A stretch of 64,000 nt of DNA from Saprospiraceae bacterium (lineage in GTDB: Bacteria; Bacteroidota; Bacteroidia; Chitinophagales; Saprospiraceae). Made by a program: the position numbers and the translations under genes. Positions 40,243-43,576 of this stretch are shown here, piece after piece. The DNA lies in assembly GCA_024103005.1 (NCBI GenBank), contig JAGFJA010000007.1, forward strand, positions 310,001 through 374,000, written 5' to 3'. Within the stretch, counting starts at the first letter, position 1, and every line of letters begins with the position of its first letter. The notes under the pieces are model-generated. The model was not told the DNA's origin. It searched no databases and was given only the letters and a program-made list of their open reading frames with translations.

Positions 40243-41232
40243 TTAGCGATTGGTCAATAATGCCAGGTCTGCAAGGGCAATAGCCGCGACTGCTTCCAGA
40301 ATTACCGGCACTCTCAGTGCAATACAGAGGTCATGCCGACCTTTGTAAGAAAAGCTCTCCATCTCTCCTGAAGCCATATTCCAGGAATGTTGTTCCTTGG
40401 GTGTTGAGGAGGTAGGTTTGACGACAACTCTGAATACGATGTCGTTGCCATTGGAGATGCCTCCATTAATCCCTCCTGAATGATTGGTAAGCGTCAAGCC
40501 ATCCGGATTGATGATGGCATCATTGTGTTCGGAGCCAAACATCCTTGCTGCCTTGAATCCCGCACCAAATTCAATACCTTTTACAGCCGGTATAGAAAAG
40601 GCTATGTGCGAAATAACAGATTCTACGGAGTCAAAAAATGATTCGCCCAGACCGACAGGCAGACCTTTTATGGTACATTGTACAATGCCACCTACAGAAT
40701 CTTTGGCCTCAATGGCTCTTTGGATACCTTCCTGTATGTCGGGACATCCGGCAATTTCAACTATTTCCGACTGGAAGTGGACTTTTGATTTTAAATGATG
40801 ATTGATTACTTTCTTCGCTATTACTCCCGCTGCTACTAGGGCTACGGTCAGTCTTCCCGAAAAATGTCCTCCGCCTCTGTAATCCTCAAAGCCCTTAAAT
40901 TTAATATGTCCGGTAAAGTCGGCGTGTCCGGGCCGAGGTATATCCCGTTGCTTTGTATATGTTTCACTTCTGGTGTTTGAATTGATAAAATTGATATTTA
41001 TCGGACTGCCTGTTGAAAAACCGTTAAATATTCCGGAGGAAAAAACAGGTATGTCGTCTTCTATTCGAGGTGTCGTACCCTTCACTCCGGGCTTTCTTCT
41101 TTTCAGGTCACTCAGGAAATCCTCTTCATGAATAGCAATGCCGGGCGGACAACCATCAATGACAATACCTACCTCCGGACCATGGGATTCACCATAAATT
41201 GTAATTCTAAAAAATCTGCCAAATTGATTCAT
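40243..41232 (-). CDS. aroC: Chorismate synthase
   Basis: Last step of the shikimate pathway, making chorismate from EPSP with reduced FMN. 329 residues from ATG 41232. Signatures present: FRITIYGESHGPEVGIVIDGCPPG at the N-terminus, RPGHADFTG, YRGGGHFSGRLTV with the flavin-site residues, GIEFGAGF and GISNGNDIVFRV. An upstream in-frame TTG (41271) lies before a -7-like box CATCTTTG (41237-41244, minus strand) and is ruled out. The box ends only 4 nt before the ATG. Confidence 0.95.
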   Translation of the reverse strand: MNQFGRFFRITIYGESHGPEVGIVIDGCPPGIAIHEEDFLSDLKRRKPGVKGTTPRIEDDIPVFSSGIFNGFSTGSPININFINSNTRSETYTKQRDIPRPGHADFTGHIKFKGFEDYRGGGHFSGRLTVALVAAGVIAKKVINHHLKSKVHFQSEIVEIAGCPDIQEGIQRAIEAKDSVGGIVQCTIKGLPVGLGESFFDSVESVISHIAFSIPAVKGIEFGAGFKAARMFGSEHNDAIINPDGLTLTNHSGGINGGISNGNDIVFRVVVKPTSSTPKEQHSWNMASGEMESFSYKGRHDLCIALRVPVILEAVAAIALADLALLTNR

Positions 41233-41910
41233 TTTACAAAGATGGTGAAAAATCAGAAAGCACGAAATCAAAAGTGTATGAATCGCAAAATGTGCAGATT
41301 ATAAAATGCAGGTATAGCGGATGACGTGGAAAATAGCCGAAAGATAATAACGTTTTGATTGTTTGGAGTTTGATGCGCTGTCGCGTCTTTGATGAACTAA
41401 TGTCCGGTTGATTTTCTGATATCAAATAACTTGGTTAAAAGCTCAGGTGTTAAGTTTTTGAACTAATTATCGACATATAAGTATAAGTCCGAAGTTTTGG
41501 ATATCATCGATGTGATTTTTAGTCATTTTTCATCAAATCTTCATGGTTTGTCAACCGAGTTTCAAAAATAGGACAATGTATCACGCTTCATAGGTACGAC
41601 CTTATTAAATTAAAAATAGATTATCAGTCGGTTGTGGTTTGTTGCATAAATCACAAAATCACCTGGGATAAATATTCAACCTGGAATATCAGGAAAATAA
41701 GATTATTCATTGGCTTAAAGTCAACCGATTTCCTGAATATTTTAAGAAAAGTGCAATCGGTGATATACGCGTAAAAGTGAAGCTTGAAATGGAGAGGCAT
41801 CAGTGAATTTAATGTCATTCGAATGAAACAGAGTGAAAAATTGCCTATTCACCTCTTTGAAGGGTGGATTACGCCTCTTTTTAAGGAAAAATTTCAAAAA
41901 TATATTCATT

Positions 41911-41934
41911 GCTCCCACAAATTACCACTTTTAC
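41911..41934 (-). promoter_or_regulatory. MraZ-box-like site, upstream, minus orientation
   Basis: Read on the minus strand: GTGGTAATTTGTGGGAGC preceded by GTAAAA. It has two TGG-type half-sites in a 10-nt period (TGGTA-N5-TGGGA), the pattern known for MraZ operators (TGGGN repeats spaced by 5 nt). It is an inverted, nearly identical copy of the site at 42127-42144. Confidence 0.6.
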
Positions 41935-41977
41935 TTACGTTAATATTATATCACGACTATAGTTTATGTAATATTTA

Positions 41978-41985
41978 TATCTTTG
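41978..41985 (+). promoter_or_regulatory. -7 promoter box TATCTTTG, probable dcw promoter
   Basis: Exact TAnnTTTG between the two MraZ-box-like sites. It would give mraZ a leader of about 200 nt that runs through the downstream site. No clear -33 element. Confidence 0.45.
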
Positions 41986-42126
41986 TAAAACATGTGTTTT
42001 AATATATACATAATATAAATATGTTAATATGTAATCAAAATAGTTACAAAACCATCATATTTTGATGATAAACATATATAAAAAAATAATAATCTTTGAT
42101 TTTGCGTAAAATATTTTGGTAAAAAA

Positions 42127-42144
42127 GTGGTAAATTGTGGGAGC
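42127..42144 (+). promoter_or_regulatory. MraZ-box-like site, 54 bp before mraZ
   Basis: GTGGTAAATTGTGGGAGC, with TGGTA-N5-TGGGA spacing. MraZ is known to bind such repeats in front of its own gene and repress the dcw operon in other bacteria; the binding here is inferred from that. Confidence 0.68.
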
Positions 42145-42197
42145 TAAACTATTTTTGACTCATCAAGAACAGAAAATGTTTTGAAAAGACCTAATTA

Positions 42198-42671
42198 ATG
42201 CAACAGCTATACGGGGAATATGAATGTAGCGTTGATGAGAAAGGGAGGTTGAAATTGCCTTCTGCGCTTCTTCGCAATGTAGGTGGTAATCCGCCGTATA
42301 AGTTTTTTGTAAACAGGGGTTTTGAAAAATGTTTGATGTTGTATCCCGAGAAAGTTTGGGAGAAAATCGTTGAAAAAGTAAATAACCTCAACTCTTTCGT
42401 TACTGAAGAGCGCAACTTTATCCGTTATTTTTTCAGAGGTTTAAGAGATGTGGCGACAGATTCTGCTGAGCGAATTTTGTTGCCCAAGCCACTACTGGAA
42501 TTTGCGGGGATTCAAAAGGAAGTTGTGTTGTTTGGTTATATGGATCGTGTAGAAATCTGGGATAAGGCAGCTTATTATGCATGGGCTGATGTCGAGCCGG
42601 ATAATTTTGCTCTTATGTCAGACCGATTGTTGGGAAATAAGAGCGAATCCGGAAATCAGAATGTGTTGTGA
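42198..42671 (+). CDS. mraZ: Division/cell wall cluster transcriptional repressor MraZ
   Basis: 157 residues with two SpoVT/AbrB-like MraZ domains: YGEYECSVDEKGRLKLPSALL (about 4-24) and FFRGLRDVATDSAERILLPKPLLEFAGI (about 79-106), each holding the DxxGR/LP-type core (second copy DSAERILLP). MraZ forms a ring that binds TGG repeats upstream and controls the dcw cluster. First gene of the cluster; its stop overlaps the rsmH start by one base. Confidence 0.95.
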   Translation: MQQLYGEYECSVDEKGRLKLPSALLRNVGGNPPYKFFVNRGFEKCLMLYPEKVWEKIVEKVNNLNSFVTEERNFIRYFFRGLRDVATDSAERILLPKPLLEFAGIQKEVVLFGYMDRVEIWDKAAYYAWADVEPDNFALMSDRLLGNKSESGNQNVL

Positions 42672-43576
42672 TGATACCTTACCATCTCCCGGTTTTACCT
42701 AAAGAAACCATTGATGTGTTGGATATTAATCCTTCCGGGGTTTATGTGGATGTAACCTTTGGAGGTGGAGGGCACAGTAAGTTGATTCTTGAGAAACTGG
42801 GGCGAGATGGGCGTTTAATAGTTATGGATCAGGATTTGGATGTCATTCAGAATATTCCCGATGATAACAGGATAACCTTCATACACAGTAATTTCAGGTA
42901 TCTTAAACGAATGTTGAGAGTGGAGAATGTAGTCGAGGTGGACGGGATTTTGGCAGATATCGGTGTATCATCTCATCAGTTTGATTCAAGCCATAGAGGA
43001 TTTTCTTTTCGCTTTGAAGGGGATCTGGATATGAGGATGAATCGGGAGACAGCACTTGCGGCAGCAGACATCATCATGACATACGAACAGGAATCGCTGA
43101 TTGAGATGTTTTCCGGACTGGGAGAGGTCAGAAATGCAAAGACGTTGGCGGGGTTGATTGTCAGCATCCGCAGAAAGTCAAAGATTAAGACAATTGAGGA
43201 ATTTATTTACGGAATTCAACCAGCTATTATCGGCAATAAGCCGAAATATCTTGCTCAGGTATTTCAGGCCTTGCGGATAGAAGTTAATGATGAATTGGGA
43301 GCTTTGAAAGAATTGTTGTATGATTCTTATGAAGTGTTGAAGAAGGATGGCGTAATTGCTGTCATTACATTTCATAGCCTGGAAGACCGTATAGTAAAGA
43401 ATTTTTTCAAGACAGGAAATCCAGAAGGCCGGATAGATAAAGATGAATACGGTAAAATTTTCAAACCCTTTACCTTGATTAATAAGAAACCAATTGAACC
43501 GGGTTGGGAGGAAATTAAGGTAAACAATCGCGCCAGAAGCGCAAAATTAAGAGCAGCGAGGAAGTCGGGAGAGTAA
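42671..43576 (+). CDS. rsmH: 16S rRNA (cytosine(1402)-N(4))-methyltransferase
   Basis: 301 residues from ATG 42671, whose A is the last base of the mraZ stop (GTG 42668 is also possible). YHLPVLPKETIDVLDINPSGVYVDVTFGGGGHSKLILEKL is the SAM-binding start of RsmH (MraW), followed by GILADIGVSSHQFD and RGFSFRFEGDLDMRMN. The C-terminus has TFHSLEDRIVKNFF and NNRARSAKLRAARK. Methylates N4 of C1402 in the ribosomal P site. Confidence 0.96.
   Translation: MIPYHLPVLPKETIDVLDINPSGVYVDVTFGGGGHSKLILEKLGRDGRLIVMDQDLDVIQNIPDDNRITFIHSNFRYLKRMLRVENVVEVDGILADIGVSSHQFDSSHRGFSFRFEGDLDMRMNRETALAAADIIMTYEQESLIEMFSGLGEVRNAKTLAGLIVSIRRKSKIKTIEEFIYGIQPAIIGNKPKYLAQVFQALRIEVNDELGALKELLYDSYEVLKKDGVIAVITFHSLEDRIVKNFFKTGNPEGRIDKDEYGKIFKPFTLINKKPIEPGWEEIKVNNRARSAKLRAARKSGE

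Follow-up and report, generated by a model that had tools for sequence, protein, structure and literature searches.

MraZ is the product of the first gene of the dcw (division and cell wall) cluster in many bacteria and forms large rings. In E. coli, loss of MraZ has very little phenotype. DNA looping is known from the lac, gal, and ara systems, in which a main operator lies at the promoter and an auxiliary one at a distance of tens to hundreds of bp, with a spacing in helical steps. For the Mollicutes, PMC5282649 gives the MraZ site as (AAAGTGKN3)3. In Burkholderia, as in E. coli, the MraZ boxes are placed downstream of the -10 box by the text of PMC7761207, and in Burkholderia they overlap the transcription start. 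According to their titles, the PDB entries 9r4j and 9sz7 show MraZ of M. genitalium bound to its own promoter, i.e. one promoter with its boxes.

Here, we analyzed the region upstream of mraZ in a stretch of Saprospiraceae DNA of 64 kb (the window). Its features are as follows.

40243..41271, minus strand: aroC, the divergent upstream neighbour (PF01264, E = 1.6e-110), about 640 bp from the distal box
41911..41928, minus strand: distal MraZ-type box (putative auxiliary operator), with two GTGG units 10 bp apart; kept in both congeners
41929..42126, no strand: DNA between the boxes, presumed loop (198 bp, 83% AT)
41978..41985, plus strand: TATCTTTG, taken for the promoter box in an earlier note on this DNA; not kept in the two nearest relatives
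42116..42144, plus strand: proximal MraZ-type box (TTGG at 42116, GTGG at 42127, GTGG at 42137), overlapping the -33 region
42150..42157, plus strand: TATTTTTG (TAnnTTTG), the -7 promoter element of the dcw cluster, conserved in relatives
42162..42197, plus strand: predicted mRNA leader of about 36 nt, with the start placed by the -12 to -5 rule given in PMC9723704
42198..42671, plus strand: mraZ (157 aa; PF02381, E = 1.8e-27, two stretches); predicted structure resembling MraZ structures (Z about 20)
42668..43576, plus strand: rsmH/mraW, second gene of the cluster (PF01795, E = 2.5e-88)

The boxes at 41911-41928 (minus strand, GTGGTAATTTGTGGGAGC) and 42127-42144 (plus strand, GTGGTAAATTGTGGGAGC) are alike at 17 of 18 bases and were the sole matches in the 64 kb at up to three mismatches. 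When the window was shuffled, 0.06 matches were expected on average, and two such matches occurred in none of 100 shuffles, which bears out the near-identical inverted pair described in the earlier note. A genome-wide search for the 15-bp core that allowed at most one mismatch revealed no further site. The distal box had been drawn as 41911-41934; the site is real, its limits are 41911-41928, and the boxes are 198 bp apart. They had also been said to face each other. The pair is indeed inverted, and the motifs, read 5′ to 3′, point away from each other, so that the wording is a matter of convention. A third, weaker unit of the proximal site (TTGG, 42116-42119) lies 11 bp ahead of the next unit.

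A box matrix trained on 161 proximal boxes, all from relatives outside the genus, yielded the unit AAGTGG(T/G)AA with a 10-bp step. Because this unit matches both the Mollicutes site and the triple box of the E. coli K-12 mraZ gene, both boxes of the window are classed as MraZ-type boxes, i.e. as predicted MraZ sites. The direct GTGG/TGGG repeats with a 10-bp step that mark MraZ operators ahead of mraZ are represented by the units at 42127 and 42137. Instead of a single cluster at the promoter, the window has a second, inverted cluster (41911-41928), which recurs in relatives. As in a looping operator pair, the promoter has two predicted sites, defined by sequence, for the same repressor.

The two PF02381 stretches of the window MraZ correspond to the duplicated MraZ domains, and its AlphaFold monomer model (pLDDT 89.5) has the double-domain MraZ fold (1n0f, Z = 21.0 over 139 residues). 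Against the M. genitalium MraZ-promoter complexes 9r4j and 9sz7, the monomer model reached Z values of 18.8 and 19.7, respectively, at about 31% identity. Downstream of mraZ come rsmH/mraW, an FtsL-like gene, and a transpeptidase PBP, so that a dcw cluster starts here. The closest named relatives by MraZ identity were a Saprospiraceae MAG (92%) and Candidatus Parvibacillus calidus (84%), whose proximal box is degenerate (score 8.0). In family f24, a MraZ match was missing from all nine genomes searched, which are nearly complete, pointing to a lineage-wide loss. Upstream of the distal box, the roughly 640 bp toward aroC (41272-41910) have 66.5% AT, no ORF of at least 80 aa, and no Rfam match.

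The -7 box of Bacteroidota promoters is given in PMC9723704 as TAnnTTTG, occupying positions -12 to -5 relative to transcription start. Of 138 non-redundant relatives, 114 have this element at -60 to -15 relative to mraZ (5 for the reversed control), and for 98 of 130 proximal boxes it begins 13-16 nt beyond the first base of the last GTGG. In the window, TATTTTTG lies directly downstream of the proximal box, which consequently overlaps the -33 region and falls outside the mRNA leader. Transcription would start near 42162, which puts the proximal box at about -46 to -18 and hence ahead of the transcript. The idea that the downstream site is part of the leader was thus not upheld. The box noted between the two sites, TATCTTTG, is present at 41978-41985. 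A role of this box as the dcw promoter was rejected: neither congener keeps it, and the element that is conserved follows the proximal box. Two loci (L012 and L015) may have two tandem promoters: besides a distal inverted box, each carries plus-strand boxes at -99/-100 and -48/-49 and two TAnnTTTG elements.

Recurrence of the distal box was analyzed in loci from two homologue searches. The first contributed 130 matches (one genome twice), used as loci, out of 184 genomes with a match; of the 334 genomes matched in the second, most were already covered, and 54 loci from further genomes were added. In a first set of 138 non-redundant loci, an inverted box was sought at -150 to -500 with a matrix score of 12. 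An enlarged set started from 302 loci with an mraZ start; removal of 13 loci with less than 520 nt upstream and of 56 near-duplicates left 233, comprising 164 Saprospiraceae, 33 members of another family of the phylum (f23), and 36 other members of the phylum. The first set yielded 53 inverted, 14 direct, and 3 reversed-motif matches, and no distal box was detected at -500 to -1000 even at a threshold of at least 10.

In the enlarged set, a proximal box preceded mraZ in 154 of the 164 Saprospiraceae. An inverted distal box was found in 60/164 non-redundant Saprospiraceae, 23/33 members of f23, and 5/36 others, with 3, 1, and 0 matches, respectively, for the reversed-motif control. Dinucleotide shuffles gave an expectation of 0.0 per 164 and per 33 loci on the inverted strand and of 0.2 per 164 on the direct strand. 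Conservation of the pair in sequence and inverted orientation thus extends well beyond the genus, and the inverted distal box is no accident. Absence of the upstream copy from close relatives, which the earlier note had named as evidence against the pair, was also looked for; the copy is present in both congeners. Three loci (L047, L051, and L053) have two inverted distal boxes each, at about -213 and -288.

Presence of the distal box tracks the MraZ tree (30 changes, compared with a mean of 47.9 and a minimum of 37 in 300 shuffles). In several genera, every sampled member had it (4/4, 4/4, 3/3), and in others no member did (0/7, 0/6, 0/5). Intergenic length was rejected as the cause of its presence, the medians being 462 with and 471 without a distal box. 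The distal box is dispensable for MraZ control, since (i) it was without a match in 104 of the 164 Saprospiraceae and 31 of the 36 other phylum members sampled; (ii) in another phylum (that of the Clostridiales record L081), it was found on neither strand in any of the 28 loci whose upstream DNA covered 520 nt or more; and (iii) mraZ of E. coli K-12 has the proximal triple box only and no distal box. In the phylum of the Clostridiales record, 29 of 30 loci had a proximal box at score 12.

The orientation of the distal sites is biased. Counting those separated from the proximal box by 100 bp or more (n = 96), 84 were inverted and 12 direct (binomial p = 1.8e-14, a figure that ignores relatedness). 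Direct distal sites in the enlarged set numbered 19 in the 164 Saprospiraceae (0.2 expected), 0 in the 33 loci of f23, and 1 in the 36 others, and are in part real; the 19 drop to 12 once those less than 100 bp from a proximal box or lacking one are left out. Their tree signal was not clear (11 changes versus 12.6, with 20 of 300 shuffles equally low). A constrained orientation would be natural if one protein assembly with a handedness, presumably one or two MraZ rings, held both boxes.

Spacing in relatives, a further check proposed for the pair, turned out not to be fixed, ranging from 76 to 384 bp between distal and proximal box (median 205; 85 loci); in Saprospiraceae, it changes in steps of about 11 bp. 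Across 58 loci of this family, which are related by ancestry, the phase of the spacing was significant (R = 0.44, jitter p = 0.0003). After thinning of the Saprospiraceae loci to MraZ identities below 0.8, 0.7, and 0.6, the p-values were 0.03, 0.013, and 0.001, respectively. Differences between near relatives, taken from a minimum spanning tree, cluster at 11-12, 20-22, and 31 bp. When the spacing was anchored at the -7 box and restricted to two-unit distal boxes, R rose to 0.57 at 11.1 bp (n = 40, p = 0.0003), and near-relative contrasts gave z = 3.1 at 11.0 bp versus 1.0 at 10.0 bp. The best period is not sharp (10.5 to 11.4 bp), and the phasing statistics are only partly freed of shared ancestry. 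For f23 alone, thinned to eight loci, phasing was not significant (p = 0.54). A repeat-register artefact, in which a shift by one 10-bp unit mimics phasing, was rejected, as the signal lies at 11 and not at 10.0 bp with the -7-box anchor. Helical phasing is the expected mark of looping and was therefore counted in support of a loop.

Alternatively, the distal box might be an extra MraZ site that works without a loop, as a reservoir, a boundary to read-through, or a site for spreading. The variable spacing and the AT-rich DNA between the boxes (83%) would suit such a role, which predicts, however, neither the helical phasing nor the excess of inverted sites. A barrier to read-through is further contradicted by the upstream genes, since their orientation makes no difference: 42 of 58 loci with a distal box and 71 of 106 without have a co-directional nearest gene. 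We regard a distal site without a loop as unlikely.

The similar shares of co-directional neighbours also bear on a second possibility, namely that a second, divergent transcript (a gene or small RNA), likewise under MraZ control, has the distal box as its operator. The distal motif does read leftward, and the minus strand of the window contains TATTTTTG at 41895..41902, 16 nt beyond the first base of the distal box's last GTGG, a possible leftward promoter; in some relatives (e.g. L049 and L057), a leftward ORF begins about 70 bp from the distal box. However, a minus-strand TAnnTTTG at 13-16 nt accompanies only 1 of 53 distal boxes, that of the window itself, and this element is missing in both congeners and hence private to the species. 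Moreover, no Rfam family was found within 41200-42700. An alignment of the three congeners spans the distal box and the DNA up to mraZ, with no alignable sequence further upstream. Because the alignment ends at the distal box, the box lacks a promoter of its own in nearly all loci, and the orientation of the neighbour is indifferent, it is assigned to dcw rather than to the neighbouring gene, which makes a divergent operator quite improbable.

An RNA device, in which the inverted boxes would pair as a long stem in read-through transcripts, can hardly be credited and was rejected as a conserved function: the window boxes could pair over 17 of 18 bases, and variable positions agree slightly better within a genome than between shuffled partners (6.8 versus 6.4 of 12; 81 loci), but agreement at 6.8 of 12 leaves no long stem in most relatives, the spacers differ in L010 and L011, and the predicted start downstream of both boxes gives a dcw transcript containing neither.

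The distal box is thus very likely a functional MraZ operator of dcw, and it probably acts by looping. As a whole, a dcw promoter with two MraZ operators, the distal one cooperating through a DNA loop, is the explanation we favour, and we consider it reasonably likely. The proximal operator, a direct repeat of two to three GTGG units overlapping the -33 region, would block RNA polymerase. The distal operator would be its inverted copy about 210 bp upstream, with no promoter of its own in most relatives and no tie to the neighbouring gene. We infer that MraZ, a ring-forming repressor in the relatives studied, may occupy both boxes and loop the 198 bp of AT-rich DNA between them. Such a loop would make MraZ locally more concentrated at the proximal box, and repression by this mode would make autoregulation of the cluster tighter or sharper.

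More tentatively, MraZ of many Bacteroidota might be a DNA-looping architectural repressor, with the inverted far box accounted for by two rings face to face or by one ring gripping two parallel DNA segments, and with one loop switching the whole division and cell wall cluster; we see this as a possibility on the doubtful side. If true, looping would give the ring-shaped MraZ a reason for its form. A conserved, inverted second operator, apparently in helical register, makes looping by MraZ directly and cheaply testable, and genera that always have the distal box can be contrasted with genera that never do. Overall, the core of the earlier note seems to emerge stronger than proposed, as a recurrent inverted, very likely auxiliary MraZ operator that appears helically phased in Saprospiraceae. 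In the open-licence literature, we found no description of a second MraZ operator, of looping by MraZ, or of the MraZ operator of Bacteroidota, although an earlier description is possible.

Direct GTGG/TGGG repeats with a 10-bp step just ahead of mraZ are shared by the window and the operators of E. coli, Burkholderia cenocepacia, and the Mollicutes. In contrast to the single cluster of E. coli, Burkholderia, and the Mollicutes, the window has a second, inverted box about 210 bp further upstream. Also, its promoter box lies upstream of the -7 box, whereas the boxes of E. coli and Burkholderia, as far as the source goes, lie downstream of the -10 box. MraZ of M. genitalium (9r4j and 9sz7) has the same fold as the window MraZ at about 31% identity, and the titles of the entries speak of a single promoter. 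The combination of an operator at the promoter with a distant, putative auxiliary operator, apparently spaced in helical steps, resembles lac, gal, and ara, with a loop that is presumed in the case of the window. Unlike in these systems, the repressor would be a ring-forming protein of the MraZ fold with direct-repeat sites, it would autoregulate a division and cell wall cluster, and the far site has been kept inverted.
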